Notes under the pieces: model-generated
What the model was told of the DNA's origin: nothing
Databases searched by the model: none
The model's input: only the letters and a program-made list of their open reading frames with translations
Translations under genes and position numbers: made by a program
Origin: Grammothele lineata
Lineage: Eukaryota; Basidiomycota; Agaricomycetes; Polyporales; Polyporaceae
Assembly (NCBI GenBank): GCA_002150815.3
Contig: NDFF03000222.1
Coordinates: 1 to 64,000, forward strand
DNA length: 64,000 bases
Direction of reading: 5' to 3'
Part shown: positions 29,254 to 55,262 of the stretch, one piece after another
How positions within the stretch are numbered: the stretch's first letter is position 1
Layout: every line of letters starts with the position of its first letter

Positions 29254-30697
29254 TGTGCTATACTACGGTGAGTACCCAGCGTGGTACATCTTCAATCATG
29301 CTTTGCCGCTCATTCTCCTGTCGTGCGAAGATCACTCTCATTTTCTCTGAATACCCTAATCTCAACTCCTATCGCAATATTATCTATCAAAATTCTGCTT
29401 CTTTCCACCTTCTCGACTCCATCATACGCCCAGACTTTTGCCTTCGACGCACACATCTCCGACGCCCTCCCATGTATAGAAACCGTCATCGCCTGGACCG
29501 GTGGGACGCCTCCCTACCAGCTCCAAGTCTTCCCCGCCGGCACGACACCCGGCGATCCCCCTACAGAAACAATCCAGTCCATCACCTCGACGTTCGCTGA
29601 GTGGCTGCCTGACTTCACGCCCGGCACGAAGGTGTCGCTACGCCTGACCGACAGTCTCGGGCAGTCCGTCATCGCGTTTTCCAAGTTCGGAATCGTGGAC
29701 GGCGGGCAAACAGACGAGTCGTGCTTGAACGGTGGTAACAACAGCTCCACGTCGAGCACAGAGGCTGTGACTACCTCGACGCCTGCATCGACTACGGCGA
29801 CCTCTTCCGGCTCTTCGTCGGACACAGCAGTCTTGGCCTCCAGCCCGTCTGTCTCTATCACTTCTACCACCACCTCCGCTTCTGGTGCGCCGGCACTGGT
29901 CCCCGCGTCATCCACAGCCTCTACGTCGGTGCCCGGCGCTTTAGCAACCTCTTCCGCAACGGCCGTGGCTGGCACCACCCCTCCTCCGCCAACTACGAAA
30001 TCCGCGCTTAATATGGGAGCTATTGTAGGCATTGCCATCGGAGTTGGCGCAGTCGTGATCATTGCGCTCGCTATCCTTGTGTACGTTCTCGTCAAGCGTC
30101 GACGCAGGCGGAATTGGCAGAACCGCAGTCCGATCATCGGTATGTCGTCTCTCTGCAGCCTTCTCCTATTAGCGTCTAAATACCGTGCGGTGACGCTGTG
30201 CAGACCTTGAAAGCTCCCCGACCTTTGAGCGAGCCCCGACGTTCCTCAGGTTTTCAGCCCTCGTCCAAGATCTCGGTGAGAACGCGCGCGATACGCTCAG
30301 GCCGCGCCCATTCGTCGTTCCGCAGACCACCTCCATCGAATCACCCTCTCAGGGAGCCGATAGTCCCCCCTCCTTCTCTAGCCTCCCCAACACTTATCCG
30401 CCGACTCTTTCGGAGAAGCCTGGACTCTCAGTTTCAATACCACCATCGTACGAAGGATCTGCGTCGTCGTCCATAGCTCAGACGGAGGGACCATTGAACG
30501 CGTCACCCACTACTTACTTGGATGCAGGAGCGCCTGGCTCACAGAAGTTGAAAGAGAAGGGGTGGAGGCGGGAAGCAGATTGGGGGCTGCGCGTTACGAG
30601 CGAACAAGTTGAGGTCGCAAACCAGTTTGAAACGGCCGAGGCGGCGAGGAGACAGACGTTGCCGCCGCCATACGCCAGTTGTCATCACGCCGCCTAG
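29254..30697 (+). CDS. M6: single-pass membrane protein, WGG/PPY family, PPPY tail
   Basis: Secure exons are 29331-30139 and 30204-30697. The first coding exon is unresolved: the frame of exon 2 needs a phase-2 donor, and the best GTGAGT (29268) does not supply it from any nearby ATG, so 29254 is only a nominal start. Exon 2 begins with a hydrophobic leader. The ectodomain follows with Cys and Ile-Ala-Trp-Thr-Gly-Gly-Thr-Pro-Pro-Tyr and ends at Asp-Glu-Ser-Cys-Leu. A Ser/Thr stalk, a Gly/Ile/Val membrane helix and Lys-Arg-Arg-Arg-Arg-Arg come next. The tail shows a weak Ala-Asp-Trp-Gly-Leu-Arg-Val version of the conserved motif and ends TLPPPYASCHHAA. The second intron is phase 1 as in M2-M5. 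Confidence 0.75.
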
Positions 30698-35914: not shown

Positions 35915-36895
35915 ATGGTCCCACCACGGAACGCGATTCCCTTTCTCGTCGCGACCTGTGTCTTGCACACACCGTACGTCGATATTCTCCGCTTCTCGGA
36001 TTCGCAGGGCGATGGAAGTGACGGTGGTGGATCGCAACTCCCAGAAAACCCCCTACGCAGTGTAACTTCACGACGCTGGAATGGACAGGCTGCACTCGTA
36101 CGTTATTCCTTCCCTCCTCTCGGGCGCGACGCTGCGGCTGACCTATACGCCCCGGTGCAGCCCCCGTCACTCTCGTACGTCCCGCCTTCCCCCGCGCGCC
36201 GCTAAGATCCTCCCATTAATTAACCCTATCCTGGTGGCGTCGATTCTCCACCACCCACAGAGGTGAGCCCCTATACGTTACGCCATCGCGCCTCGCGCCC
36301 CGCGTCCACGCGCTCACGCCCGCTCCCGTTCCCCTTCCTCCGCGCGAACAGCATACACAGTATCTCCGACCAGAGCCTCGTCGACGCCTTCGAGTTCTCG
36401 CAGGGCACATTCCAGTTCAAGTGGCTCGCGCACGTCCCCGCAGGTGCGTTCCCCCCTCCCCTCCCTCCCTTCTCTCTCTCCGCTCACTGCGAGGCGTGAC
36501 GTCATCCGTGCTGACTCTACCCCTCGGCTTGCGCTCCCCGCGTCCGCATCCGCGTCCACGCTCGCGTCTCTCCGTGCCTGCCGCCGTGTCCGTCTTGCTC
36601 TGCTCTGGTGCTGGTGCTGGAACTGGTGAAACGGCTGCGCAGACACCGCCCTCGCGCTCTCCGTATCCGACGGCGCGGGGGCGTTCGCCCAGGGCGCGTT
36701 CGTCACCGTCGAGGATAGCGGTCGTGAGTCCTTTCCTTCTCTTCTCCCTAGCCTTCCCCTCCGCACCCCACGATAGTTTGCGGTCGGAGGAAAACGGTGG
36801 CTGACTGCCCCTTCACAGGTGACTTCTGTCTCCCCGAACCGTCCTCGTCGCGCACGTCGATGATGCCCACTGGGCAGGCGCGGCGCGGGTGGTGA
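35915..36895 (+). CDS. S1: small secreted single-domain member of the WGG/PPY family
   Basis: Seven exons: 35915-35973, 36045-36097, 36160-36173 (14 nt), 36261-36262 (2 nt), 36352-36443, 36643-36720 and 36819-36895, giving 124 residues. The leader (about 1-18) is only moderately hydrophobic. The domain has Gln-Cys, a Trp-Thr-Gly-Cys in place of Trp-x-Gly-Gly, Pro-Pro-Val-Thr-Leu from the 14-nt exon, a Phe-Lys-Trp strand, and a final Asp-Phe-Cys-Leu. The tail is longer than in sisters. An acceptor 9 nt further on (36361) would also keep frame for exon 5. Exon lengths 53, 14, 2 and 78 equal those of the other S genes. The intron before exon 6 is unusually long (199 nt). GC is high. Confidence 0.75.
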
Positions 36896-39301
36896 GCATT
36901 GAGCGCGCCCCACCCACTCCGCGCACGCTCCCGCCCCTGCCGTGGTTCCGGTTATGGTTACATAGACATGAGGAGGCGCACGCATATATAGAGGGGGTGG
37001 CTGTCCGCCGAAGGAGAAGCAGGCGGAAGTGGAGACGATCGCGGACGCTTAGCACTCAGGGGCTCGGGGCTCGGGGGCTCGATGTGTGGGCGCGCGATCG
37101 GGCGGGCCGCGGCTGGCTGTTTTAGTGTGTTCATGACATGACGCGACATGATTTTTTCTCTGAGCTTTCGCTATCTCTATCTCGATCTCTCTCCTTTGTA
37201 TCGATATACTGTATCGTTCCGCGCGCACCGTACCATACTTTAGCAGATCGGAGCGTTCCGAAGTGTTACTACATTCCTGCTCTTTCATTCATCCATTCAT
37301 CCACGTTCATCGACACACTCGGCCACCCGCAATCGCGCGTCCCGTTCCCTCCGCGTCCCGATCCTCAAAAAATCGCGGGCCTGCCCAGAGCAAGTCACCT
37401 GAACACACATACCCACTCGTATTCCGTTCCTCCAGCGAGCGCGAGGCTAGCATTCCGCGCTCGCGCAGAGCTGCCGAATAGTGGCACACTAGTGCGCTTG
37501 AAGCTGCGTGCGTCCCCTTGACCCGCTCGCTGCCCAACGAAGGCGCGTTCCTCTGCGTCTTGTTGTGGTGCGCGGTGTTCGCTTCGCTGTGAGACTAGCG
37601 TTCAGAGCGAGAAGGAAAAGCCAGCTTAGGGTTGACCGAGTTCAGATTGGTAGGTATCCGCTCGGAAGCAAAAGATGGTGGACGGCCGATCGATGTCCGG
37701 GCGGACGGCCTGGCTCACCAAGAGTAAGTATGGCGCTATGCACTAAACCCGATGACGAGGCGTCCAACTTGAAGCTGAGATGAGAGCGCCGCGGACAGCC
37801 TGTGCACGCGCTGAGCACCTTCAGCGAAGAATTCTTCCCCTTGCGCGGTTCGATCGCCCGGCATTCATGTTGGCGGGACGCTTGGGATCGGGAAACGGAC
37901 CGGAGCCGGGCCGTAGACAGATATGACGTCATGGCAAAACGCGGGGTAAGCTCAGCTCACGCTGGCATTCTCTAAGCCCTGGCAGTTGCGGCCTACACCA
38001 TGGTCCGAGGATGCCGGCTTTGAGATTTCATCTCAACAGCTGTCCAGTCTCTGAGCATATCCTAACAGGTGCGCGGTGAACGCATCTCGGGCACAGCCAC
38101 CTTCTGACCCCGTGCGCTCGCAGACCGCAGCGCATCGTACATAACTCTTCGTGTCCAAGCAGTCTACGTAATAGTATACGTTGCTACATGAGCACTCGTT
38201 GTCCAATCGTACCTTAACGACTATCCAGCCTCCAGCGTTCAAGCAGCCATGCCCAATTCCCTGTCCCGAATGGCGGCCGGCTCGGCGGCGGCGGAAGACT
38301 CCATTCTGTTCGCCGTGGTATCAGTGGCACTCTTCTAATATTGCCACCCCACGCGTTGTGGTCGTAACATCAAAGCTGGCGTCGACACCAATAGTGGATA
38401 CGAGCATGCATCTCAACGCCGCGACTCTCGAGGAAGCTGACGACGCGGAGAGGCCGATCTCAGGCGGAGGCGTGCTACCCAGCCGGGTCATGATTGTGGC
38501 ACACCGAGGGCGGTGCGCTGTCGAGCCGCCGAGGATCATATCGTGCGAGAGCAGAAGCTAGAATCGTGCTGTGGCGCAAGCACAGGCCATGGTGACGCCG
38601 GGGCACGAAGCCCCCGGTTCTGTCTATTGTGTCTTGGACGTTGGCTCTGAAGCGGCGCGATTGGAGATGTTGTATGTGGCTGGTTCGTAGATGGCCTCGT
38701 TAGTTTTGTACAGGGCTATTTGAATGTCTTCACTAATTACTGCTGGTTTTCAGCGACCCGTAAGACTTGGTTTGTATTTGGATACACTCAAACCCCTTAG
38801 TTGCGAAGTACTTTGCTCCCTTCGATATCGTGTATACCGAAGACGGCCCCAGTGACCACTCCTTGTCTCTCTTGGCTGCGACCATCTAAGATGCTTCCAT
38901 CAACTTGAGACATAACTGAATCAGCTTGCCACTGTATCAGCCACTGACTTCTATTGCTATCTTTACAGCTGATGCATCTGGGTACGTCTTTGATGTTAGC
39001 GATATTATGGTAGCCCCGGAGACTATCGATGCTCACGGGTGCAGCTCCTGCCAGTATTTATGCCACTCTTGAAGGCTACGTTAGCCGTGATCTCACATAT
39101 GTACGCTTCCAGGCTACCCCCCCAATCTTCTCACTTTCGTGAACGTCTATCCGAGATCGAAAGGGTTCAAATTACTCAAGCCCGACTCAAGAGGAGTAGT
39201 ACAATATCGTACGGGTACAACCCACTTCGAGCGCATGTCACGAAGGTGACTCTTTCACGCTAGCAAACTGGTGTGGACATCCTAATATTCAGATACCTAG
39301 C
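36896..39301. other. Intergenic, S1-M8
   Basis: 2.4 kb without a supported gene. A hairpin with CCGGGGC/GCCCCCGG arms lies at about 38599-38618. A segment near 38820 on the plus strand could encode Ala-Pro-Phe-Asp-Ile followed by a GTGTAT donor, which may be a relic of an S-type exon. Confidence 0.4.
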
Positions 39302-40310
39302 ATGTTCAAAAAATGGGGAAGAGACTACTACCAGAGCGAAGAAGATGGCACTTCTTTCTCTTGCAGTATTGAAAAAGAATGGGCTCATAATCCCAAATAT
39401 TCCTGTTCTTCTTCCACATTCCATTCATTCACTAGCATCGAACTACCGTCCGAGTCTTCAACATTTATAACACCATCACCACGCGGGCCATCATCCTCTA
39501 TGCCTCAGGCTACTACTACAGCCCCCAGTTCCTTGGCTTCCGGTTCCAGCGCAACTTCTAGCGCACCCCAAAAAAGCAACTCTCGAGTCCCACTCTCTTC
39601 GAGTTCTGATGGTATGTGGTTCTTTCACTATTCAGGCCCGGTAAGCCTAATGTGATGTCAGGAGGAAGCCAAACTCCGGAAAGCAACCTCTCACCCAATA
39701 CTGAGATCCATTCACTAAAATTGCTTATTTCCAATCACAGGTATATTCGAGCTCTGTCACTGTTAGCTATGCTATTTCTCCAACAAATCACGCGACTACA
39801 CGGCCTCCAGGAGACTCTCCTTCGGACAGCGGACCTGGCGTAACACTGAGTGGAGCCCCAACCGCCACAGATTCTCTCCCGACGGAAACCAACTCCCGAA
39901 TCAAAGATGGTATTTCAGCGGGAGCGTTAGCAGGCGTAGTTGTGGGTATTCTTCTAGCTGCGGTTGTCGTATGCGCTGTCGTGTTATGGGCGTACAAGAA
40001 GCACAAGCGAAGAGAGAACGCTGCAGCGATTCATTTCGGTGTGTCCTTTCGCTTACCACCCTCAATCTGTAATCTTAATCTCACCTTCGAAGAACCGCAC
40101 ATGCTGAGCCCCGGAAAATCGAACATGGTCTTTGCACACGACAGCGAGAAGGTGAAGAAATGGGACGATGATCAGGCCTCCGTCTTGTCGAGCATTGCGC
40201 CGACTCTCCCCGCGTATGGGTACACATCGCGTGACCCTCAAATTGTATTCGAGAGCGATGCCGGAAGCACAGTGATGTTGATGACTCCAGAGGATAGAAG
40301 AGAGAGATGA
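39302..40310 (+). CDS. M8: degenerate or atypical membrane paralogue (no WGG, no PPPY)
   Basis: A Ser/Thr-rich stretch (39400-39610) is followed by an intron with GTATGT donor at 39611. A Ser/Thr/Pro region and a Gly/Ala/Val membrane helix come next, then Lys-Lys-His-Lys-Arg-Arg at about 39910-40020. The tail reads on to a stop at 40310. A 57-nt segment inside the tail (GTGTGT to TTCGAAG, 40040-40096) is an optional intron divisible by three. The tail retains Glu-Ser-Asp-Ala-Gly, like the conserved motif, but stops 13 residues later without the PPPY end. I could not find the Cys...Trp-Gly-Gly ectodomain upstream, so the 5' end is unresolved. It may be a truncated gene or pseudogene. Confidence 0.5.
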
Positions 40311-41219
40311 AGGTGCTGTTCTAGCATTTCTTGACCTGTAGCTCGATGAGATGTATGTTGGGAACGATGAGGGGACTAGCGTCGCAGACACATCTCAAGT
40401 TTGGTTCAACTCCTGTGCATGTGGTCGATATAGCATCCTGCGTTGCGCTGCTTTGATATCCTGGTCGGACTACTACTCGTACTTATGCCCTGGCGCATTG
40501 ATTATTACCTGATACTGATTGTATCTACTTTACTCTAGTTCATTGATGGAGACTCGTGAAGTCACGCAGCATCTTCGTTTCTGTCAAGCGTGGACTTTCG
40601 CCACCGCCTCAACGGTGCTTTTGTCTCGACGTACTGACTTACTATTGTCGAGTCCTCTCAAGGCAAGAGGCGCCTCTCCTGCTTCGGACCGGAATCGGAG
40701 CGTAATACGTATGACGTCATGGCTGTTAACGAGAGTACTCGCCGCCCTCCCGCTGAGCAGAACCAAACGGAATCTCGTGGACTGCTCCAGTCTGCTCCGA
40801 GCCCCTTCTTTGATCCCCGATTCAGCTCCTGCGATTATATTAGAGACACTAGACCTCGGACTCGCCTTGCGTCGGTCTTGAGAACTCATCAACACCGCCT
40901 CATCGGCTTTGAAGCTGTGAGTGCTGCTCCCATCCGACTTCCTCCCTTCCCCTTTCTCCCACCTAAGCACTCCATTCCTTGCACCTTGATCCATAACGCC
41001 GTTTTAGCACGAGCCTGTAATCCTCGCTGTTACGCACGCGCTGAACTTGAACTTGGAGGCGCTCGCCGTCTTAGCTCGCGCCAATCTGTACGTACTTGCG
41101 ATCGCAGTCTGTATGACACTTCGACAATAATCGTCACACGCGGCGCTGGCTGTCCACTAGGACGTAAAAGGACATACATAGGATGTTCGTCAAGGTGTGC
41201 CTAGACAGGCCGACGCGCG
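40311..41219. other. Intergenic, M8-S2
   Basis: Nothing recognised apart from the S2 promoter at its right end. Confidence 0.45.
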
Positions 41220-41228
41220 TATATATAA
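41220..41228 (+). promoter_or_regulatory. TATA box of S2
   Basis: TATATATAA lies 120 bp before the S2 ATG. Confidence 0.6.
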
Positions 41229-41339
41229 TGCTCTGCGCAATTGAACTGCGTCCTGCAGCGGTCAATCTCTGATTGACATTGCACCTCCCTTTCGTTACCT
41301 CGACTCATCCAACCTCCCGGCGCATACCGGAATCCAGCT

Positions 41340-42121
41340 ATGCAGACCATGAAGAAGGGTTTGATCCTATCCATAATTTTTATGGCTGCCACTATTGCGC
41401 TTGCGGTTGCTGCTCCCGCGGCGAAGGACCTCAGTATCGATACGCCGTACGTCGCGCGAATCATATCGTGCGTGCGCCGGTAAAGGAATTGCACTCTGAC
41501 ATTACATGTAGTGCAAGCGTCGCACAATGTGTTCCTACCCTGATACAATGGCACGGAGGAGAACGTGAGTATACGCTCTCCATATTTCCTTGTCGTCCAC
41601 ATCTGACATGGTCCTTCCACCAAAGCACGGTTTAACCTGGTACGTCTCTGAGGCTGCGATCTGTTCTACTATGTGTAGAACCCGTGCGCTGACGTACGTA
41701 TTTGCCCTGGGGAACGGGGAACATCATCTGACAGACGTGAGTTGCTTTGTTTCCTCGTTGATCATTTCCTGTTACGACCCACCTGACCCTGCGTCGCACA
41801 TGTGTAGTACTATCGAAGACGGGCAGCCCGGATTCACAGAATTCCTATTACTGACTGACCATCACATTGATTGGGCCACCGACGTCAAGCGTGGTACGTG
41901 CAGGACATTTCTCAGTGTAGATATTACTTGTAGTACCTCCACTGATGCCCAATGCAGGAACGATCCTCCAGATCGTAGTCACCGATGCCACCGGAGCGAG
42001 CGCCTCAACCGCCCCAATTGTAGTAGGCGAAGGTGCGTTTGGGGCCTTCTTGCACCTGAGTACGTTGCTCACTGAGCTCCCTGTACTAGGAAATGATAGC
42101 TGCTCTGTTGAGAACCCTTGA
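41340..42121 (+). CDS. S2: small secreted single-domain member of the WGG/PPY family
   Basis: Exons are 41340-41446, 41512-41564, 41626-41639 (14 nt), 41735-41736 (2 nt), 41808-41893, 41958-42032 and 42090-42121, giving 122 residues. An extra 15-nt in-frame exon at 41679-41693 with good splice sites would raise this to 127. A signal peptide (1-27) is followed by Ser-Ile-Asp-Thr-Pro. The domain then shows Ala-Gln-Cys and Ile-Gln-Trp-His-Gly-Gly-Glu, with Pro-Arg-Phe-Asn-Leu from the 14-nt exon and Ile-Asp-Trp. It closes with Asn-Asp-Ser-Cys and a stop five codons later. There is no stalk or membrane helix, so the protein should be secreted or periplasmic. Two Cys near the domain ends probably pair. 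Confidence 0.8.
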
Positions 42122-43320
42122 GGACTGCGTCAAGCGTTGTATTACCTTCTGGTTTGCTCGAATGGGGCTTGGATTAAAGCGCAGATTGCTCGTGATACTC
42201 ACTATGCAACGACGGGATGATGAGGGCAGCTACATAGTACTTACTGTTTCGATATTGCGTCACGAATTTAGGGTTGAACTAGGGAAGACACTGTAGTGCA
42301 GAGATGCCAAATGTGCGGAGATGGCAACTTGGTCGCGAGGGCGCATATCGCAAGCGCCGATTACGTCATGCTTGTTGACACAGCCTTGGAGGTTCCCGAG
42401 CCGCGCGCTCGGCGCCTCGGTTGGATGCTGACGTCTACGACATCTGGCTCTCGAGTCTCCATGGGCTCCTCGCCGTTCCTGTGGGAGAACGATTTCTAGG
42501 CGGCCTTTACGTCGCGAGACCACGTTTTCCACGGGAGCATTCTGGTGGCACGATACTTACGGCCGTCGGCGAGACTTAAGGAAGACATGCTTTGAGCTTC
42601 GCAGGTCCGCGCGTCCTATTCACTTAACGTTCCTCATACTGAGAAAGCAGGTACACAGGCACCTTCCGTGCGCCTTCACAGATGTTATTGCGCGGAGACG
42701 TCGTCTTGTAAGCTCTGTGGTCGGTCTAGGCCTCACGTTCTGGCCAGACAGGACCTGCCAGCATGATCGCGATTCTGTGGGGTATGTGCGGCTCCGTGTC
42801 TCACTATGGAACTTTGCGTGCTGTGCAATCGCCCTCGGAGATCATAAGATGACTCAGAGGGGCTAATGCGGGTGCGTGAAGTCTCCTGTAAGTCGGTATA
42901 CTCATGGTTTGACAGGAGGTCCGCAGCTACTGCGTTTGGGGACACTCTCACAAGGGGAGAGCGTGCGCGAAACTACGGGTTGCGATCCGAACCGTGATAC
43001 AGAAGGAGTTCTCACTGATGTCCACATGCACATCACTCGTATTTGTGTCCGATGTAGTGTGGTACGTATTCATGATCTTGGTAGAGCCTGTCATGCCGAC
43101 AAGGAGAGTGCTCAGTTTCTGTACGAAAGCCGGACCTTTTCTTGTCAAAGCTATTTTCGTACATAGCATCCTTTCGTGCTGCCGGCAGACACCGCATTGC
43201 ACACCCGTCACGTCCATCTTCCTCCACAGCTACTTCGTACATAGGTAAGCTCCTCGGATGGCCACGATCAGAGTGTGCACAGACAACCGCAACGGTTCTG
43301 CGGCGGAGCGTAACCGTGCC
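42122..43320. other. Intergenic, S2-S3
   Basis: 1.2 kb with short ORFs only. No family exon could be assembled. Confidence 0.45.
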
Positions 43321-43326
43321 TATAAA
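43321..43326 (+). promoter_or_regulatory. TATA box of S3
   Basis: TATAAA lies 95 bp before the S3 ATG. Confidence 0.6.
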
Positions 43327-43415
43327 GTGTCAGAGGCGAACAGAATACCCTGTCTACAGGCATTCCCTGGTGGCCCCATCCACTGTTCTCAGATCAGAGA
43401 TAACTCTTCAACGCC

Positions 43416-44129
43416 ATGCGATTCGCTCACACTCTCTGGGTTTTGCTCTCAGCTTCCGTCCTCGTTCTTGCTCAAGAGCCACTTGTCATCGATACTCCGT
43501 GAGCACTGTGGTCTACCTTTCTGCAGCGCACGTCTAATTCCCCTCGATAGTACCGGGGCGAAGCAATGCACACCGACAGTGATTGACTGGTCTGGTGGCG
43601 AAGGTGAGGGTATTTGCACCCATCGGCGCTCGAATTCCAGCTGACTGCTTCTCCTAGCGCCATTCGACTTGGTAACGTATTCTAGCGCTGCTGTTTAGTT
43701 CCAACGGGTTCTGACACTTTCGACATCGTATACGAACATGGTCACTCATGTGAAGACGTGAGTTCGGAGCTGTGATATCTTAGCTTACTTTGCACGCGTC
43801 AGCTGACGAGTTGCTCGGGCGCAGTATTTTCTCCGGAAATAGCGCCATCGAGCGGTTTGATGATCTCTCGGGGACATCTTTTACGTGGAACACAAACGTT
43901 CCTGCCGGTACGATTGCTAATCCCCTTTACAAAAGAAACGCGCTGTTCATATTCAATGCGTGCTCAGGTTCCTCGATCAGCTTGGAACTCAAGGACAGCA
44001 GCGGTGCCGTCGCTCAGTCAGCACCGTTCCCCGTTGGAGACAGCTGTAAGTAGGCTACATGGATCTATGGCGCGCTTGGCGGCTGACTTTACTGCGTCCA
44101 CTCAAGCGGACAGCGCCTGCTTGCCGTGA
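43416..44129 (+). CDS. S3: small secreted single-domain member of the WGG/PPY family
   Basis: Exons are 43416-43498, 43551-43603, 43658-43671 (14 nt), 43756-43757 (2 nt), 43825-43907, 43968-44045 and 44107-44129, giving 111 residues in frame. A textbook signal peptide (1-19) ends at Leu-Ala-Gln, then Val-Ile-Asp-Thr-Pro. The domain has Lys-Gln-Cys, Ile-Asp-Trp-Ser-Gly-Gly-Glu, Ala-Pro-Phe-Asp-Leu, Ser-Phe-Thr-Trp-Asn, and ends Asp-Ser-Ala-Cys-Leu-Pro. From the residue after the microexon to Trp the spacing is 22 residues, identical to S5 and one short of the intronless M2 domain. That match fixes the register across the 2-nt exon. Confidence 0.85.
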
Positions 44130-44526
44130 TCAACTGGATGTAATTCGTTCAAACTGCGTGTGTAACAGTATTCGTACGTGATATGTTTGTGCGATGCATA
44201 CAGCTATGAAAACCATTGCGTGAGCGAAGTTGATGCCGAGCGTTCTACCGCCGGTCTCGGACCCTTCTCCAAGTGTAACTTTTCCATTCTAACTGCTCAA
44301 CCAACAATCCTGCTGTACTGGCAAATGGTCCTGGATTCCGACGCAGACGCCTCTTGTCGTACCTTGGACAGCTGGAGCACACCATGGTCTCTTTAGACCG
44401 CTCCTGTGGGCGTCGCGCTCATAGTGGCGTCGCTTCAACCGCTCAGATGTAACACATGACCAACCAGAACGGAAGCTAAGAGACCTCAACTGAACGCAGA
44501 CTTTGGCAGATAGACGTTCGTCGCTG
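44130..44526. other. Intergenic, S3-S4
   Basis: About 400 bp. Nothing recognised before the S4 TATA box. Confidence 0.45.
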
Positions 44527-44534
44527 TATATAAG
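44527..44534 (+). promoter_or_regulatory. TATA box of S4
   Basis: TATATAAG lies 68 bp before the S4 ATG. Confidence 0.65.
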
Positions 44535-44594
44535 AGATCGAGAGCGGGTGCACGCTTACTGAGCTCTGGAACGTATCTCAGAACCCACCTGACC

Positions 44595-45303
44595 ATGAAG
44601 TCCATTCTGCCTCTCTCCCTCCTCGCCGCCATGGCTCCGGTCACATATGCGCAGTTGACTATCGATACACCGTGAGTGTACCGGTGATGTACAATGATCC
44701 GTCATGTTGACAATTGCTGGGCTGTGCCGACGACAGTACGAACGCGGTCCAGTGTGTGCCTACCCTGATCACCTGGGAAGGAGGAACCCGTAAGTATCGC
44801 TTGGCGAATGGACAGGCGGGATAAGAAAGCTTATCTCCGCTTCTATACAGCGCCGTTTACTTTGGTAAGGTTCATTCTATGTGCTGATGTCACAACACTC
44901 ATTCCTCGTTGCATGAACGATATATGTTAGATGTAAGTGGACATCTCTTGCTCTCTTGGAGACCGTGAGTGCACAGCTCATACAAGTTCATAGCATCGTC
45001 AACGCATTCAGCTCGCAGAACTTCGGGCCGATCTCCAATTCGTCCTTCGAGTGGGCAACCAACCTACGCGCCGGTGAGTACGTTTTGCGGAGTTCGCCCA
45101 GAAGCTGACTGACCGCCGATATCTTGACAGGATCAACATGCTTCCTTGAGGTTGCTGACCATGCCGGCAACTTTGCGAAGTCTGGCACGTTTTTCATTCA
45201 GAACGGCAGTACGTATACGTTCCCTTACGTCTCATGGATGCAGGAGGTCTGACAGGACGGACTTAATCACATCTCCACAGCGGATATTACCACGTGCTTC
45301 TAG
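44595..45303 (+). CDS. S4: small secreted single-domain member of the WGG/PPY family
   Basis: Exons are 44595-44671, 44737-44789, 44851-44864 (14 nt), 44931-44932 (2 nt), 44994-45073, 45131-45208 and 45281-45303, giving 108 residues. The signal peptide (1-20) is followed by Thr-Ile-Asp-Thr-Pro. The domain reads Val-Gln-Cys, Ile-Thr-Trp-Glu-Gly-Gly-Thr, Pro-Pro-Phe-Thr-Leu, Phe-Glu-Trp, and ends Ile-Thr-Thr-Cys-Phe. The 2-nt exon AT is bounded by TTAG on the left and GTAAGT on the right, the best donor of the series. The gene ends tail-to-tail with the large unknown gene to its right. Confidence 0.85.
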
Positions 45304-45733
45304 CGGACTCATGGCTCCTTACTGGAAGTCGCGAAGCGGGAGGCGCAGAAGCTCATCGTAGAAGTCCCTTGTATGCAGAGATCCTGTAATGCCGCGATTG
45401 ACCAGTCTGAATGTATGAAGTAATGTCAAAGACGACATACCTCAGTAGAACGGCAGTGTTCATAAGCAACCTTCGAGACCATGGGGAAACAGCAGTATTA
45501 TCATCAAAGTAGTGATACACTTGTACACCGTTGAGAAGCCGGGCGACGAGCGCATTGCTGGGGATACATTACAACGTGTTATAGGGGGGCACAAGCCTCT
45601 ACGGGAATTACGAAGAATTAGTAGCTGTAGAAGTACACGAGCCGATGCGATCCGAACATGATGTTACATGGCCTCCACATTAATAATCGAGGCAAACCTG
45701 GCCCACACACCGCAGAGCGCAACGTCGGCGACT
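45304..45733. other. Convergent spacer
   Basis: 430 bp between two converging 3' ends. Nothing recognised. Confidence 0.45.
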
Positions 45734-48700
45734 TCATCGCGTCGACCCTCCTCTAGCAGCACTCGGACCAACGCTCACTGTGCTGCTAACAGTCGTGATC
45801 ACACCCGAGATACCCATCGGCAGGCGCTGCATCGACTGCCCGTGCGCGACGCCCGCATGCTGCGCATCTTCGCTTGCTCTCCGGCCGCCACCCGCGCCCG
45901 CGACCGAGCTCCTCCGAGCCAAGCCGCCTCCCGAGCCAGGCTGAGAGCCATACAACGCCGAGTGCTGGAAGGTCGTGTACCCAGCGGGGACCATGCGCAT
46001 CCCCGGGAGCGGGATGGGGTGCGAGTGCATCTGCGGCATAGACGGGTACGGGCTGCCGAGCTCGCTCTCGAAGGGCGCCGAGCCGTCTGTCTCTGGCTCC
46101 TCGACGTCGTCGACGTCGTCGTAGTCGCCCTCGAGCTCCTCGGCGTCGTTGTCGTACTCTTCCTCGCCTTGGTTATCGTGCAGCTGCGTGGAGAGGGGAG
46201 ATAAGGGGCGCGCGCGCCCACTGGAAGCGGCGCTCCGGATGCTGCTCAAGGACACACGCGAGAGGTGGGGTCGATGCGAGCTCGAGTTTGGTAGTGGTGG
46301 CGGCGGCGAGGGTGACGAGCGTTCAAACAACGCTGGCGGGCGCGAAGACGCGAAGGCAACCGGGTTAGGCGCAGACGCAGGCAGGCTGACCTCAGACGTG
46401 GAGGGAAAGACCGCGTGGATGGATGACTGGCGCGCGGTGTTGCCCATGCCTTGCATGTTGGTGCGCATCGTGCGCCTGAAGAGGGAGTCGACGGAAGAAT
46501 AGGTCGACAGCGTGCGCCCATGGCCGTTCTTACTCTGCGTCTGCTTCGCACCTGCCGGCCCACCCGGGCCGGAGCTGCCGGCAGGCCCGGAGGCCGTGCG
46601 GCGGGAAGGGAGGATGCTGGGACTGGGGACGTCGGAGCCGCTATGCGCGGAGGACGTGTCACCGTCGCCAGGGTCGCTCTCCCTTTGGCGTGCCGACCAT
46701 GTGCCAGGATGAGTGTGCGAACGGTCGTGATCTGAAGCCGACGCGCTCGGGCTGGAGTGGGACCCTCCGAACTGTGACGACCAGCCCGCGCCCCACGGTG
46801 GCGGAGCGGACGCGTCGGGCACCGCGGTCTCGAGGGTCTCGGAGCGTGCGAGTACAGCGCGACGTGCGCGGATCTGTGCGCGTAGTTCCTCTTCTTGGCG
46901 GTGCAGGAGGACGGCGTCGACCCAGCCCTCCCACTCGGCTTCGCTTCGGTCGCTCTCTTCGTCGTTACGGTATGGGTCATCGAGCTCGAACGAGAGATCG
47001 ACGGAGGGCCGAAGTGTGAATGAACGCTCTGGGTCTTTGCCTTTCGGAGTGACGCTGCTGTTCACGGAACTAGCAGGGAACGGGACGGACTGCTTCGCCG
47101 GTGGACGAGGAGTGAGGGCGGAGAACGGAATAGCGTTGGGAGGGCGCTCAATGGGCGAGGGGTCCACGCTACTGTTGCGACGCGCCCACTCGATAGCGAG
47201 CTCGTCATCATCCTCCTCGGCTTCGTCGTCCGCATCATCCTCTTCGTCGCCGAACATAACCAGTTCCATCGCGCGTCCGACCGCACCGAGGCCTGCGCGG
47301 CGAGCGGCACGGATAACAGAGAGCCGCCATGACGGATAGGAGATAGCGGGCGTCTGGTTCGTGCCAGCGAACGTGGGGGGCGGGGGAATGGGGCTGGACG
47401 GTCGAGTATCGCTCGAGGTTGGGAAGGCAGTAGAAGAGTGCGAGGGGGATGATGTTATCGAGATCGAAGTCGTCGATGACGGCGGAGGGAAGGAATAGTC
47501 CGAGGATGGCTCGGGCGGAGGGGTGCCAGGGAATGCAGGTGTAGATGAGCGAGAGCTGAAGATGATCGGGGAGGGGATCGGAGAATATGCCGGTGTTGGG
47601 GAGGGAAGGAATGTCGAATGACATGTTGAGGGAGCGTCTCGATGGAGGACACGCAGGATGTTCGAGCACGCTTGAAGGTGCACGCATTCAGGGGAGGACG
47701 AAGGGACATCGACTGGCAGCACTCACCGGAGCTGTCCAGCATGTCCAGCGCAATCCACACCGCGTCGTCGTCTGGTCGCTCTTTCTCCTTCCCCTTCTCT
47801 CTGCTCGGCCTGAACTCTTCCTCTGACTCCTCCATCCCTGCTTTGCTCCCTCTCCGCGCCAACGCGTCCCAGACGTCCGCAAACCCAGCGCTGCTCCCGG
47901 TTCCTACCAGTGCACTGGCACTAGTCGCTATGCCGATGCTCAGTGTCGTCGAAACGTCTCGCGAGCCTCGCCGCCACCATCCGTTCTGTCCAGACCCTAG
48001 GGAGGGAGACGGCGGGACCTGGGGCTCTGACGAACGGCGCTCGATCGTCGACGATGGAAGTTCGTCCGGGAACGCGTGCTGGCGGCTGCGTGTTCCTTTG
48101 CTGAACTTGAGGGAGATGATGTTCGATAAGGCGGAGGGTGAATTCTGGCGGAGTCGACGTGCGTGTGGCGCCAAGTTGGAGTGGTTTCCATCGCAGATGG
48201 ATTGCAGCTTTAGGATGGGGGCGGAGAACGTGGGATGGTCGTCCTGTTCGATGCGGCGTCAGAATCAGAAGCAGAAACAGCGCATATATGCACCACACCA
48301 GGCCCGTAAGTGACCGTACGTATGGGTAAACCTCAACCGATGCAGAAGTTACATCCAAGTTGCGTCGCTGGCAAGCGCAACGGCTTCACGGAAAGAGAAG
48401 AGCTGAGATGTCATTGAACATGCCTCGGGCACGCTTACTGTCTCGTTCTCCTCTACCACAGCTTCGACGCCCATGCCGGAGATACCATTCTTGATCTCTA
48501 TACCCAAATCGCCGGTCCATTATCATAGCACGCGCGAGTAAGGAGACCCATTCCACGTCTTCCGCTTCGACTCATATATCTTGGAACACCTTCACTCCGA
48601 TGGAAACAGAGGGAAAGAACTCACATGTCGATCCTTGCATAGCGAGAATACGCCTTGATGAATGACCGCCCAACGTTCCTTCCACTCGAGGGTGAGCTTA

Positions 48701-49497
48701 CGTCGGACCTTCTCCCGCCCGCCTGGCACCTTGTCACCTCCAAGACCGTCTCCGTTTCCGCGACGCGACTTTGCGAGGGCTTTGGAAGAATCTATCTTGC
48801 TTCCAACAATGCGGAGGGCCCAAACACGGGCGATAAAATAGGGAGTGATGTATGCGTCGAGGGAGTACCTGCAAAGGCTGGCAAAGGAGACGGACGCGGG
48901 GTGCAGCTCGAGTAGCTCGTTGGGCTGGATGGAATACCACGAGAGCCCAAACCGGTCTTCGAGGATTTGGGTGGTAGAGAACGAGATGAGCACATACATT
49001 TGGGGATCTTCAACGGGTTCAGATGGAGACAATATGCGAGTGAGGGAGTCGGCGGCAGAAGAAGTAGAGGGGCGGGCAGAGTACTTGTACCGGTGCGCCT
49101 CTGTGAACAGATCCGTTATGTTGGTGTCGTCGTCGTCGTCCACGTCGTCAGAGAGGTCTGAGAACGCGGACTCGTCCTCGCTCGAGATGGTAGAAGCCGG
49201 GACCTTGCGGGGCGGCGGGGCGGCAAATGTGATGGGGGACAATGAACGGCGTCGAGCCTTACGAGGAGAGACGAGGATAGCGCGAGGGTCGCGCTCGGCG
49301 GCAGCGGAAGTGTCATGAAACTTTTGCAAAAGAAACCGTTTGAGCTGCTGAACGGGCCAGTTAGGATTGACATGGGTGACGAGCCATTGGTCGCTGCAAA
49401 CTGCCGAGATAGATTAGGAGCCGGAATGGGCGCCAGGACGAGGATAGAACGCACCGAGCCTGCAGGCGATTCTCAGCGACCTGTCGTCGGCGGACAT
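45734..49497 (-). CDS. Large uncharacterised protein with a PH-like N-terminal region and long disordered tail
   Basis: The model has exons 49497-49455, 49400-48625, 48579-48532, 48489-48439, 48367-48320, 48243-47727 and 47670-45734, giving 1139 residues. The three short middle exons were chosen to keep the frame open and are the least certain. The N-terminal part has an ordered region near Trp-Pro-Val-Gln-Gln-Leu-Lys-Arg and a segment Thr-Leu-Glu-Trp-Lys-Glu-Arg-Trp-Ala-Val-Ile-His-Gln-Gly that resembles a PH-domain start. Downstream comes Val-Trp-Ile-Ala-Leu-Asp-Met-Leu-Asp. The last 600 residues are Ser/Pro-rich with acidic runs and look disordered. No catalytic motif was seen. A cytoplasmic lipid-binding or scaffold role is only a guess. 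It separates the plus and minus S arrays. Confidence 0.75.
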
Positions 49498-50533
49498 GGC
49501 GAGCGGCGCACGGCGACGGGGAGGGCGTGGCCGTCGACGGCGACGAGGGAGAGGAGGAGAGAGACGGTGCGCTGCTGATGCTGATCATCGCCTGCGCCCA
49601 AGTCCGCCACTGCAGTCACGATCACGTGTATCACCCCGCCCGCCGCCCGACGCCGGGTCCCGACCCGGTCTATCACTATTCCAAACGAGGAAACTCCGCC
49701 TTGAACAGCGAGGTTCGGTTGCCGGCATGCCCTACGTTCTTTGTTTCCATCCACCTCACAGGTAACGTTCGCAATTCAATTAGTATCGCCCTCAGCCACT
49801 CACCGAATCGTGGTTCATAACGATCTGACATCTCATTTCGGACACTGCCCCGACTTGTCACACGATGGCCCGTGGACCGTCGTGGCAACCACGCTACCGC
49901 AACGAAGTCGCAGCAGGAGTTTCTCCAATGCAGCGTCGGCCCCGTTCTGCACGACCAGTAATGTGCAGAGCATCGCGCTAACGCTTTCTGGCACGATGTT
50001 GGACCCACTATTCAGCCCGCTCTAGGTGAGTCGAGCCACATCTCGTAGAGCTACTGCATTGCTGAATGAATCCGTCTCGGACGTCCCGCATAAATCTGGA
50101 CCACACGATCGCCTCCTCTAGGCTATGCTGCGATCTCGTGATAATCCTTACAGCGCGATTTCTTTATGCAGGTACGCCGTACGCTCAGACTTCGATTACG
50201 GCGTCCACGACACCGCTATGGCGCACCAGATCGATCATTTCCTAAGATTGTAGTAGTTCCCGAGCTGCACTTCTTGAGCTCGCCGCAGGAGCAGCCCGGA
50301 AAGCCAACGAAGCGAACGTTTGCACCCTCTCGAGTTCTTTTCCCACATTCCACATACCCTCTGTCTGGTACGCATGGCCGATGGCGCGGAGACAGTGTAT
50401 TCCTCCATCACCGTCGCTCGGTACATACTTACATCCTGTAGGTGTTGGACTGAATGGCTTCGTCGGAAGACGATGTCTCATTGAAATGAGGTAGAGTACA
50501 TGATACGTTGACGCCCCCTCGAGATCACCTCTC
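49498..50533. other. Intergenic between the large gene and S5
   Basis: 1 kb with unsupported ORFs. It holds the promoter of the large gene on the left. Confidence 0.45.
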
Positions 50534-51232
50534 CTACAGGCAGCTGCTGTCCTCTAAGCGCGAATGCTGTCAGTTCTCTGCGGTCTGCACGCAGCATCTA
50601 GAGCGGACGTACGGCTGTCTTGGATAGTGAACGGAGCCGACTGCGCTACCTTGCCAGCGCTGTCCGTAATCTTCAGTGAGGTCTCCGTCCCTGCACGGAT
50701 GCAACGTCATTAGGATTCAATAATCGAGTCGTCTCTGCATTCTTCGTACCAGCAGGAAAATCGGTGTTCCACTGGAAGCTGTGGCCGTTGAGGTCGGGAA
50801 ACACCAGGCCAGAGGACGGGGTCTCGGCGATTCTGGATAGAGTAGCACACAAAAATCAACCAAACGACACGCCAATTGAAGGAGGTGCATGACGGCTTAC
50901 TCCTTTCAAGTGAAAGCGATTGTAGAAGGATGTTCGTCAGTCTTTATCGAACATATGCAAGACGAAGGAGCCCACCAAGGTGAACGGCGCTGGAACAACA
51001 ATCGAGTCATTGATCAATATACGAGAAGTATTGAAACACTCACCGACGCCACCCTCCCAAGTGACCAAGGTGTTCTGGCACTGGACGGCGGTGGTCCTGA
51101 TCGTGGTTGTAAATGTGCCATCAGTCGTAGAACGTAGGATCATACTCACGGTGTGTTGATGATCAGAGACTGTGCCGACACGAGGGTGGTGGCGATAACT
51201 GCGGCAGCGACGATAGAGAGGGAGAACTGCAT
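50534..51232 (-). CDS. S5: small secreted single-domain member of the WGG/PPY family
   Basis: Exons on minus are 51232-51150, 51096-51044, 50989-50976 (14 nt), 50902-50901 (2 nt), 50832-50750, 50690-50613 and 50553-50534, giving 110 residues. The signal peptide (1-21) is followed by Ile-Ile-Asn-Thr-Pro. The domain shows Val-Gln-Cys, Val-Thr-Trp-Glu-Gly-Gly-Val, Ala-Pro-Phe-Thr-Leu, Ser-Phe-Gln-Trp-Asn-Thr, and ends Asp-Ser-Ser-Cys-Leu. Compared with the uninterrupted M2 domain, the residue built from the 2-nt exon (Glu) aligns with a real Ser, and both copies reach Phe-x-Trp after 22 or 23 residues. That supports the splice model at protein level. Confidence 0.86.
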
Positions 51233-51292
51233 GCTGAGTGAGAACGAGAGAACAATGACTCTGTGGTGGAGGTGGACAGTGTGTAGCTTGGG

Positions 51293-51300
51293 CTTATATA
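51293..51300 (-). promoter_or_regulatory. TATA box of S5
   Basis: The minus strand reads TATATAAG 68 bp before the ATG. Confidence 0.65.
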
Positions 51301-52398
51301 CGGAGAACAGCTCCCATTCCCCCGCGCGCTCTACCCAGTCCACGTTCCTTATACATTGCGTAACTCGTTAACGATACGCAGTGTACCATGAATCTATGGA
51401 GCACGGGTGAGAGCGGGTTATGCGCAGACACTGTACCACCCGTCACATTGGTTCCCGACGTCGGCACGTCCGAGTTAGAATCAAATCGTTCAACCTTCTT
51501 GTATTGGAACGAAAATAAATTTTACGTAGCGTGACTGCGGCATTGCGGCCCTCCCGGGTTCTCTGTTGACTGTGTGCATGTTGCACAGCGCATGGCGGTT
51601 AAAGACATGTCTATGAGATAGTGTTCCGTCAAGATCCAGAATTGACCCTGGTGGAAAGTCTCACAAAGGGAATTAATGCCCGTGTTGTGTACCGCGATAT
51701 CAGGGTGGAAAATGTTGGAATATTGTGCTACTTGAACGGCTATTGGAAAAGTCTCGCTTGGCTGGCAGCGGCATTGGTAAAGACGCATATGGGGCTACTT
51801 CTCGGGCTGAGAGAGCGTTCGCCGGGGTTGAGACGCCCCTTCAGGTATCTCTAGGTGAGTCATCAGCACTCGGACAGACCTTAGCGGACTGGGATCGCCG
51901 AGTCGTTGGCCGAGGCAATGAAAGCCTTCAAGCTCAGCCTCACACGAACGACGTGCGCAGCTGCCAATATGTCCTCGCCGCCGCGAGCTGCGCGCAGGCG
52001 TATGACCGAAGTCATGAAGCGCATACTTACACAGCGCTCGATCGCTTCAAATGGGGCTGTAGCGCGAGCAGAATAAAGACGATAGTGCACAGAAAGGAAT
52101 GCGAGAAGATGGCTAGGCATTACGAGAACGATAGGTTTCACATCGAACTCCACGTGCGACCCGGCGAAGGCAAGGCCACAACGGAATAACTGGTTGTCTT
52201 AATACTTGAGCAACGCTCGCATGCACGCAGGTGGTAGTAAACTCAGCAATAATTCCATCCTTGAACCGTCATTCCCTAAAGAAATCCCTAGAACAATCGA
52301 ACACATCGGAGAGCAAAGCGAGAAAGAACATGAATGTCGTAACAGTCATCGGGGAATCCGCCTTTCATTCTTCAAGAGCACGGAGGTCTTCTCTTCTC
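51301..52398. other. Intergenic, S5-S6
   Basis: 1.1 kb. The minus strand near 51655-51615 reads Asp-Phe-Pro-Pro-Gly-Ser-Ile-Leu-Asp-Leu, similar to the exon 5/6 joint of the family, perhaps a relic. No gene can be assembled. Confidence 0.4.
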
Positions 52399-53140
52399 TC
52401 AGAGGCAGCTGTCGTTACCTAGGACAAAGACGGTCGAATTAGTGACTTATATCAGACGAGACATTTGTTAGAGCGCTCCAAAGACTCGAATGCACGTACC
52501 GCTAGCGAGGACAAGGAAGTCCCCCGTCTTCGCAATAGTCCCCGCGTTGTCTTCAACTTGTGCAAAGACGACGACACCTAAGACCGAGATCAGCGAAGTT
52601 TCGTCCAAACGCTTCAAGGAAACACTTACCTGAAGGGACATTGACAAGCCAAGTGTAGCTCGTGTCAGTCGAGAAGTCGTTCCCGTTAGCGGCGACGATT
52701 GCCGTTCCGGAACCGCTAGACGTGCGCTCGACAGCACTGAAAACGATTGTCGCGTGAGCTTATAACAATCATCAAACGTTACGAAGGAGAAACGCACTTC
52801 TGCCAGACATTTCGGAGAGCAAACATGTCCCGGGTTAGCCTCTAATCGAAGAACTCAATCGCATAGAAGTCCTCACCCAAATGTACGGGCCTGAAAGCAC
52901 GGTAAGTCCACAAGTCAAACAAGTCAATGTAGTAAGACTTACTGTCCCCTCCGGACCACGTAAACGTGGCGTTTTGGCATTGAATCACCTGGGCACTATG
53001 AGATAAATCCTATGAATACAATCCAAAGCAGAGGGAAAAAGGTCTCCTCACGGCGTATTGATGACGAGAGGGTCAGCCGCAACAGCGACGGACGCCGCGC
53101 AGGCGACAGCCAAAAGAGAAAGGACGTTCTTCATGGACAT
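52399..53140 (-). CDS. S6: small secreted single-domain member of the WGG/PPY family
   Basis: Exons on minus are 53140-53052, 52995-52943, 52890-52877 (14 nt), 52799-52798 (2 nt), 52736-52630, 52577-52500 and 52418-52399, giving 120 residues. A second Met at 53134 is an alternative start. The signal peptide (about 1-22) precedes Val-Ile-Asn-Thr-Pro. The domain has Ile-Gln-Cys, Phe-Thr-Trp-Ser-Gly-Gly-Asp, Ser-Pro-Tyr-Ile-Trp, a longer central loop, Tyr-Thr-Trp, and ends Gly-Asn-Asp-Ser-Cys-Leu. For exon 2 the acceptor TAG at 52996 is chosen over CAG 10 bases further on because it gives the family length of 53 nt and the correct phase. Confidence 0.83.
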
Positions 53141-53227
53141 GACTTGAGAGGAGACAAGGAGGCTTTTGAGATACTGCGAAGCGAGAATGGGAGGGCGGTT
53201 GGCTCTGCCGCTAGCATGCGGAGGCGG

Positions 53228-53236
53228 CTTATATAG
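53228..53236 (-). promoter_or_regulatory. TATA box of S6
   Basis: The minus strand reads CTATATAAG about 90 bp before the ATG. Confidence 0.6.
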
Positions 53237-54529
53237 CACCAACATGATCGAAACCATGTGTACTTCACCTGCGGTATCCTGACACGGGGCGTGCTTGAGG
53301 CGGGCGTTCCGGTACGCCAAGCTCTTTAGGATGGATAGAAGCATGATGTAGTATATTCAGGATCTACACAGAGGCGATACGTACCCGTTCGAAACGTTGG
53401 AAGTGTGTACGCGATGAATAAGGATGATGGGAGTGAGGCCAATGCATGTTCTCGACTAGTTCACCGTAGCGTGATATGGCGGCATAGTCTCCAGCCGCTT
53501 AATCGTAATGCAGCAGGTCGAGAGTGTCAGCTCTCTATCTAGAATGAAATGGGAGGTGAAATCAACACTCACCAGGTCTGAATAATAGAGACTACTTACC
53601 AGTGATAACAAAATCAGAACGGCTTGACGCCGATGACGCTGTGGACGCCGCTGCAGAGTCGAGGCTGAGGCAGTGCTGCGAACAGCGCCTTCGAGCAAGC
53701 GAGGTGTTGGGACTTGGTAAGGCATGTTACGGGAGCGGAGAAAGCAGGCCTTGTCGGCTAATCGTCGCCGCTAACAAGAACACAGCTTCGGTCTTCAAAC
53801 TTTCAAGTTCGAGGTTACTACTCGGATATCGCCCTCTGGGTTGGTCAAACTCTCGAGAATTACTGGTGATGGATACCTTCTTTACAAACCGCTCGACGGA
53901 CATAACAATCAATCCATCCTTGGCTGCCCGCCCAGAGGCTCCTATTGATCTGGGATACGTACGAAAACACTGTAAGCACTCACATACATAAGGGTATGTG
54001 CTCTTGTACGACGGCTTTGGTCTTCAACTTGTTCGCAGCCTCGCAGTCTTATCACGTGGGCCCCAAGCCAACTCCTAAAGGCGCAGACAGAGTGGGACGT
54101 GCATCATCAAATATATGGGAGGTCCGGATATTCGTGTAGTTCGAGAGCGTTACTGACAACGAGCAAGGACGGTCGACGTCGACACTGAGAGAGGAGGGAG
54201 TTGAAATTGCTTTGATCCCGGGCCGAGTGGTGAAATGACGTCATCGATACACGTACGCGCGATTACGCTGTACGCTAACGAGCACGTGGAAGAGACGCTC
54301 AAAATTCAAGTCTTCAAGGCGTCATCAACTGACGGCCACCTATATGGCTTGTGAATATCCATGCAGTGTTCAAGTTGCTCTAGGAACAGGTACTTGCTAT
54401 AACTACAACGGTGCCACCGACTCTAGCGACGCATGCAGTGAAGGTCAGTCCCAAGTCAGACCCCTAGGAAAGACTCCTCGCTAATGTAAACATCCACCGG
54501 AGCCGGTGACCCTCCGTCATCCAGTCAGA
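53237..54529. other. Intergenic, S6-S7
   Basis: 1.3 kb. The minus strand near 53665-53605 could encode Cys-Leu followed by an Ala/Ser-rich stretch and a GTAAGT donor, recalling the end of a membrane-type ectodomain. This is too little for a gene call. Confidence 0.4.
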
Positions 54530-55262
54530 TCAAAGACAGCTGCTATCGTCTGCAGAAGTGGAATTAGGCCATTGACACACATAGAACCAATCTCATAGAA
54601 CGTACTGCTAGGCTGCACGGTGAAGTTCGACGACCGCGCCACGGTGCCGACAGAATCTTCGATCTGGATGAACGCGATACTCCCTTCCATCACAGTATCA
54701 GCTGTGCTGAGTAGAGTGCCTTTCAAGTATGCGCATACCTGCAGGAAGGAATACATTCCACGTGAAGCTAGTGGCGTCTAGGGTAACAGGGCCGTCGACA
54801 GGGAAGACGGGCTCGTTCGGGAACCCTACAACTTGAAAGGCACTGGATTGGACAGATTTGTAAGTGGACCATGAACTCGTTGCAGAGAATAGGAGAAACG
54901 TACGTCTTTTGATGATCATACACAAGCATAGATCGTTGCATCAGCTATCTGCTGGACGAGATAATTAACTCGACGAGACGCTCTTACCCAAGTGTACTGG
55001 GGACCTGCGGGCAGAGGCGATCAATAAGAGCCAAACAGACTAAGTACGATGGTATGACTGACCAACGCCTCCAGACCATGTGAAGTTTGCTGGTATGCAC
55101 TGCGCCGTCTGAGGACTAAAAGCAGCCAATACGCGTCAGCACGAATATATGCTAAGAGACAAGCACAGCGTACGGGAGGTTGACGACCAGAGGGTCAACA
55201 GCAATGGCAACAGAGGCCATCAAAGCGGCCGCAAAGAGGGAGAGGACGGTCTTCATGGCCAT
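54530..55262 (-). CDS. S7: small secreted single-domain member of the WGG/PPY family
   Basis: Exons on minus are 55262-55174, 55115-55063, 55004-54988 (17 nt), 54905-54904 (2 nt), 54842-54739, 54683-54606 and 54549-54530, giving 120 residues. Exon 1 has the same 89-nt length as in S6, and the leaders are alike. The domain has Ala-Gln-Cys, Phe-Thr-Trp-Ser-Gly-Gly-Val and Pro-Gln-Tyr-Thr-Trp; the microexon is one codon longer than in sisters. A long central loop, Phe-Thr-Trp-Asn and a final Asn-Asp-Ser-Ser-Cys-Leu follow. The acceptor of exon 6 (GGAAG) is chosen because it gives the fixed 78-nt length; a further upstream CACAG would add six residues. Confidence 0.82.

Follow-up and report, generated by a model that had tools for sequence, protein, structure and literature searches.

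Genes and predicted exons in the window

The DNA studied is a window of 64 kb, by which we mean the whole stretch analysed, forming the first part of contig C170 in the Grammothele lineata genome (41.8 Mb, 252 contigs). The genome has 35 matches to hydrophobins and at least 150 to DUF6533 (all 150 candidates scored), fungal families that occur mainly in mushroom-forming species, in keeping with an Agaricomycete. It carries seven paralogous genes, S1–S7, whose spliced coding models are free of internal stop codons once an exon of only two nucleotides (nt) is included. The predicted coding spans are 35915..36895 (S1), 41340..42121 (S2), 43416..44129 (S3) and 44595..45303 (S4) on the plus strand, and 50534..51232 (S5), 52399..53140 (S6) and 54530..55262 (S7) on the minus strand. 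They share an exon plan composed of a signal exon, an exon of 53 nt, one of 14 nt (17 nt in S7), the 2-nt exon, one of 80–107 nt, one of 78 nt (75 nt in S2) and a last exon. S1, with seven exons, is the most divergent copy, and the length of its final two introns (199 and 98 nt) makes its 3′ end less sure. In the exon models the 14-nt exon occupies 36161..36174 (S1), 41626..41639 (S2), 43658..43671 (S3) and 44851..44864 (S4) on the plus strand and 50976..50989 (S5) and 52877..52890 (S6) on the minus strand, with its 17-nt counterpart at 54988..55004 (minus) in S7; an earlier note on this DNA, which had placed a 14-nt exon before the 2-nt exon in every gene, was thus right for S1–S6 and wrong for S7.

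The predicted 2-nt exon is AG at 36261..36262 in S1 (followed by the donor GTGAGC), AC at 41735..41736 in S2 and at 43756..43757 in S3 (both followed by GTGAGT), and AT at 44931..44932 in S4 (GTAAGT), all on the plus strand, and, on the minus strand, GA at 50901..50902 in S5 (GTAAGC), AA at 52798..52799 in S6 (GTGCGT) and AC at 54904..54905 in S7 (GTACGT). In all seven genes, the segment stands where the earlier note had put it, between an AG and a good donor, and its further statement that two added bases close the reading frame (+2 modulo 3) without an internal stop is borne out not only in S1–S7 but in 12 of 12 genes, when five genes outside the window, S8–S12, are counted.

Five further genes and a scan of exon sizes

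Relatives were sought genome-wide by searches with the spliced proteins followed by reading of the DNA, with the best candidates listed, so that the family has at least the members given here. S8–S12 came to light through the similarity of their long exons at the protein level and not through the 2-nt motif, and they therefore provide a fair test of the 2-nt structure. S8 lies on contig C112 (locus L077; 2-nt exon GA), S9 on C250 (L078; CA), S10 on C170 beyond the window (L079, C170:94300-97900; AC), and S11 (L089; CA) and S12 (L094; CT) on C2. All five have AG-NN-GT at the expected place and need +2 for the frame. In S10 the 53- and 14-nt exons are fused as a single 67-nt exon (L079, 1476-1542) and both introns around the 2-nt exon are kept, which supports the 14-nt exon of the other genes; the intron between the 53- and 14-nt parts is lost, or was never gained, in S10.

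Throughout S1–S12, the 2-nt segment has an AG to its left and a usable GT donor to its right, and seven different dinucleotides (AG, AC, AT, GA, AA, CA and CT) occur among the 12 genes. The introns on both sides measure 57–95 nt, as compared with a median of 59 nt in the control introns, whereas an intron that ignored the 2-nt exon would measure 126–177 nt, a length reached by only one of 45 controls (199 nt, in S1). Skipping of the 2-nt exon would bring a stop codon 4–55 codons past the junction in 11 of the 12 genes; in S5, the span read contains no stop.

The interval from the 14-nt exon to the next long exon was scanned for AG-N(k)-GT lying 45 nt or more from both ends, the strict threshold requiring a donor score not below the 5th percentile of 45 control donors from the same genes. 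For k from 0 to 32, the strict scan finds k = 2 in every one of the 12 genes; k = 0, 20 and 21 occur in one gene each, and no other k is found. When any GT is allowed, k = 2 is still found in all 12, and the runner-up, k = 6, appears in eight genes, where the matches can come from the second GT within GTNNGT donors. Dinucleotide shuffling of these intervals produces the strict k = 2 motif with a probability of 0.004–0.030 per gene; the product for S8–S12, 8e-11, is a guide only, the related introns not being independent. The strict motif has no occurrence inside the 69 model introns, and in all four close gene pairs for which the introns were aligned (73–81 percent identical) the 2-nt exon stands in register.

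The residue at the site and the fold of the domain

An alignment was made of 27 domain copies, 15 of them uninterrupted at the site of the 2-nt exon, leaving out the genes on C209 (three places), C123, C3 and C78. Each of the 15 uninterrupted paralogues has a single residue at the site, and the column is free of gaps in all 27 copies. The same residue spacing had previously been claimed for the intronless copy M2 (32287..32601, plus strand), in which residue 49 is the counterpart of the 2-nt exon residue; this is upheld and now extends to the 15 uninterrupted paralogues. The extra Q of S12 was placed by the aligner in the site column. The genes on C3 and C78, read by eye, are also uninterrupted at the site and have an intron further on. 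The residues supplied through the 2-nt exon in S1–S12 would be, in order, S, T, T, I, E, N, T, E, Q, T, Q and L; ten of these 12 are polar, where chance would give a polar residue with a probability of 0.44 per gene (P 0.006).

In a structure model of the M2 domain (seven window sequences, mean predicted local distance difference test score, pLDDT, of 87), residue 49 falls within a strand spanning residues 46–52, and the site residue is accordingly modeled as likely to lie in a β strand. The model resembles the immunoglobulin (Ig), FN3 and PKD sandwiches in fold searches, a common arrangement, and these searches named no functional relative. Among eight proteins scanned against Pfam, no family exceeded its cut-off; the Kre9/KNH Ig-like family (PF10342) was considered and rejected, since S3 reaches only 15.6 bits against a cut-off of 24.6 and the family was not reported for the other seven proteins. 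The sub-threshold match of S3, together with a likeness to Ser/Thr-rich glycosylphosphatidylinositol-anchored fungal proteins, suggests that the protein may be secreted or wall-bound. A protein database search with S5 gave 69 word candidates, none of which reached E 0.001, and it yielded no relative from another species.

Besides M2, uninterrupted copies in the window lie at 3098..3403, 5705..6061, 8437..8730, 11110..11382 and 14005..14289 on the minus strand and at 29386..29727 on the plus strand. The seven uninterrupted window copies sit on longer open frames, and that at 32287 runs on into a Ser/Thr-rich stretch and then a likely membrane segment. Read by eye, 38900-40310 would encode a protein that, like the long copies, combines a Ser/Thr-rich part with a likely membrane helix and a basic tail; it is not among the family matches of the genome searches. 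At C209:73900-94800 (L091–L093), distant relatives that have their introns elsewhere form a cluster and appear, by eye, to be uninterrupted at the site. Adjoining S7, the minus strand at 56160-57000 bears exons of a likely membrane transporter, presumably resembling MFS permeases.

Introns flanking the predicted 2-nt exon

Upstream of the 2-nt exon, the intron exceeds the controls in length (median 79.5 vs 59 nt, P 1e-5) and has a weaker donor (score 5.1 vs 7.8, P 0.007). Its nearest YTRAY motif, a candidate branch point, lies 34–46 nt from the AG in nine of the ten scorable genes (S1–S8 and S10), as in S2, whose upstream intron (41640..41734, plus strand) has CTGAC 42 nt from its end; in the control introns the motif lies 12–26 nt from the end in 31 of the 34 that match, with a median of 18 nt (P 8e-5 for the difference). 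With the stricter CTRAY, the difference in distance gives P 0.0008. In 2000 single-letter shuffles of the upstream introns, on average 1.8 and at most 7 of the 12 have the motif in the range of 30–50 nt, against the nine observed. The downstream intron has an ordinary donor (7.6 vs 7.8 in controls) and a branch motif slightly farther out than in controls (median 23 nt, P 0.035). From the branch motif to the next donor there are 26–48 nt across the 2-nt exon (10 genes; 26 nt in S11, 36–48 nt in the others) and 27–38 nt across the 14- or 17-nt exon (eight genes).

Discussion

The position of the 2-nt segment, its splice sites, the frame and the matching codon in the uninterrupted paralogues are directly observed in the DNA, and it is highly probable that the segment is spliced in as a constitutive exon in the 12 paralogues, where it would furnish two letters of one codon and close the frame of the putative Ig-like domain. 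Its predicted inclusion is the only single rule that fits all 12 genes, and the exon would likely be one of the smallest known.

It could be supposed instead that one intron is removed, with a donor or acceptor shifted in each gene so as to restore the frame, and that AG-NN-GT is coincidental. To list such models for GT-AG introns, donors were taken between 12 nt upstream and 29 nt downstream of the end of the 14-nt exon (in S10, anywhere in the 67-nt exon) and paired with acceptors lying no more than 31 nt upstream or 39 nt downstream of the point where the next long exon begins. Stop-free GT-AG models of this kind do exist in 10 of the 12 genes, and in S5 (donor GTCTTG), S7 (GTCGAG) and S10 (GTCGGC) one of them even preserves the protein length, at the price of swapping several residues. 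However, no model is common to all genes: S1 and S11 have none within the enumerated range, S9 has only one, which needs the donor GTTTGT and adds seven residues, S8 has two (GTACAC and GTTTCC), and the other eight genes have 3 to 22 each, with unlike changes to the protein. If the ordinary donor is kept, the change varies by gene, from −4 to −11 or from +4 to +6 residues; within the window it is −7 in S2, +4 or −10 in S3, +5 or −9 in S4, −4 in both S5 and S6 and −11 in S7, with none available in S1. The earlier note had allowed for in-frame alternatives deleting 7–10 residues in some genes; such alternatives are indeed present in some, but their range is wider (−4 to −11, also +4 and +5, and more with shifted donors). 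Removal of one intron would furthermore leave unexplained both the occurrence of k = 2 in 12 of 12 genes and an intron more than twice the usual length, and we regard it as very improbable. Still less credible is removal of the long intron in two steps with no bases kept, by zero-length recursive splicing or as a stwintron. Two intron-sized pieces do stand back to back, stwintrons are reported in fungi, and the S1 exon is itself AG, so that AG|GT is present within AG AG GT; yet with no kept bases the frame falls two short in all 12 genes, each half has its own intact donor and acceptor with no splice element split, and k = 0 is found in only one gene, S1. The recursive splicing suggested previously does not hold in its strict sense, the zero-length AG|GT occurring in S1 alone, where its use would break the frame. 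A real but alternatively spliced 2-nt exon, the skipping of which shifts the frame and turns the protein off, deserves more consideration, although we think it unlikely: skipping would be followed by a stop in 11 of 12 genes and the weak upstream donor would allow regulation, whereas the conservation of the frame-closing state in all 12 genes shows only that inclusion matters.

Apart from the single-intron models and the AG of S1, several points count against constitutive inclusion of the 2-nt exon or the intron features associated with it. S12 is the least certain model, with a 20-nt third exon, two extra residues at the site and five exons only, and a later donor in it is doubtful, the exon after the 2-nt exon seeming to end before GC and not GT (L094 near 497); S12 may be decaying or using a GC donor. 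The per-gene shuffle probabilities are not independent because paralogous introns share ancestry. Because the scoring matrix was derived from the control donors, it slightly favors them in the comparison with upstream donors. The branch-point motifs are consensus matches, not mapped branch points, and their outward position is not uniform, S11 having its motif at 24 nt and S9 and S12 having no match; with the loosest form, TRAY, a nearer match (10, 15 and 26 nt) appears in three of 11 upstream introns and the difference from controls weakens to P 0.005. The AG-free zone of the upstream introns does not differ from that of the controls (P 0.13). Finally, the eMIC microexons of the fly are reported to have strong upstream donors, though long AG exclusion zones, unlike the weak upstream donors here (PMC8797185).

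Order of intron removal

As two spliceosomes acting at once are unlikely, the two introns would be removed one after the other. The stepwise removal proposed in the earlier note agrees with an upstream intron that has a weak donor and a far branch-point motif, the order being suggested by these features only, and it is likely that the downstream intron goes first. In the predicted course, excision would begin with the downstream intron, whose donor is ordinary and whose 5′ flank at that stage would be intron sequence, and the two bases would thereby become attached to the next long exon. The weak-donor upstream intron, in which the branch motif stands about 40 nt before the AG, would be excised second and would by then have a 3′ exon of normal size. 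The far branch point would leave 36–48 nt (26 nt in S11) to the next donor, at least the room that the neighboring 14- or 17-nt exon has (27–38 nt).

In one report on splicing order in animals and plants, strong upstream donors and close branch points mark the exons that lose their upstream intron first; U1 and U2 are also proposed there to be unable to sit together on the shortest neural microexons, for which the downstream intron often goes first (PMC10250204). The upstream introns here have the opposite of those upstream-first features, and removal of the downstream intron first is therefore the better guess. The reverse order, in which the upstream intron goes first and a donor is regenerated right after the two bases for the second step, is conceivable but the less probable course; the donor that follows the two bases matches the controls in strength and would be complete after the first step, but the weak donor, far branch motif and greater length of the upstream intron are the opposite of what that report gives for introns removed first. 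We tentatively speculate, and with more doubt than belief, that the lower limit on exon size is set by the distance from the branch point to the next donor and not by exon length, and that this family keeps about 26–48 nt by moving the branch point outward, whereby two free letters could be spliced faithfully and constitutively.

Known tiny exons and origin of the structure

Exons of this kind are already known, since 1-nt exons have been described in APC11, VPS55 and Fusarium CYP621A. The 1-nt exons of plant APC11 (Arabidopsis; PMC4674806) and plant VPS55 (PMC8831610) were confirmed by RNA sequencing (RNA-seq) and by sequencing of reverse transcription–polymerase chain reaction products, and that of APC11 also by reporter constructs. 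As here, the tiny exon stands between two introns and is needed for the frame, and in the case of APC11 intronless homologues carry the letter inside one exon; a putative branch point 44 nt upstream is likewise far, and its authors favor removal of the two introns in succession (PMC4674806). Read mappers reportedly can overlook 1-nt exons (PMC8831610). APC11 and VPS55, however, each represent one orthologue group with an exon of 1 nt, in contrast to the 2-nt exon predicted here in 12 paralogues of a single genome.

Fusarium, an ascomycete, offers a fungal case. In its CYP621A P450 genes, a 1-nt exon was first inferred from the same kinds of clue as here, namely a phase mismatch, an intronless relative and an over-long intron, and was later supported by reads; it differs in coming from an ascomycete and in being of 1 nt, with the same candidate AGGGT in all genes, as against 2 nt and seven dinucleotides in a likely mushroom-type genome here, and exons of 2–5 bp are cited in the same report for Arabidopsis, Drosophila and human (PMC12940212). 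The P450 genes of the white-rot fungus Phanerochaete chrysosporium also have very small exons and short introns, but their shortest exon is 6 bp (PMC1184071). Stwintrons resemble the present arrangement in having two back-to-back intron units that need stepwise removal, except that a stwintron has a splice element of one intron interrupted by the other intron, whereas neither intron here is interrupted and the two coding letters between them would remain in the transcript. The SRRM4-dependent neural microexons are similarly very short, with downstream-first splicing and steric hindrance between U1 and U2 proposed, but they are longer (medians 17 and 24 nt) and need SRRM4 for inclusion (PMC10250204). 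Among the open-licence papers listed by the literature searches, none reports a 2-nt exon in a basidiomycete or in this gene family. The apparent novelty is that 12 paralogues in a single genome share a predicted 2-nt exon, which takes the form of seven dinucleotides, stands beside a 14-nt exon and goes with a displaced branch-point motif.

Concerning its origin, tandem duplication of one intron was considered and rejected, since the upstream and downstream introns within a gene are mostly no more alike than those between genes (similarity scores of 12–17 in 10 of 12 genes, 27 in S1 and 25 in S8; between genes a mean of 15.3 and a maximum of 28). In a tree that comprised 25 of the domain copies and omitted S12 and C49_77, the genes with the 2-nt exon do not form one clade and require a minimum of four changes; as only two of the 22 inner branches are well supported, a single origin is neither shown nor ruled against. 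The domain copies read have both introns around the 2-nt exon or neither, and a copy with only one was not seen.

Exons as short as one or two letters are a test of the spliceosome's requirements for an exon. The published 1-nt cases cited above each concern one orthologue group, whereas this family offers 12 natural replicates in one genome, with the 14-nt exon as an internal control and the uninterrupted copies as length markers, and the order of removal, the branch-point spacing and the tolerance of sequence could be read directly from RNA-seq of these genes. Standard gene finders are likely to mis-model these genes, and perhaps also their relatives in other fungi.

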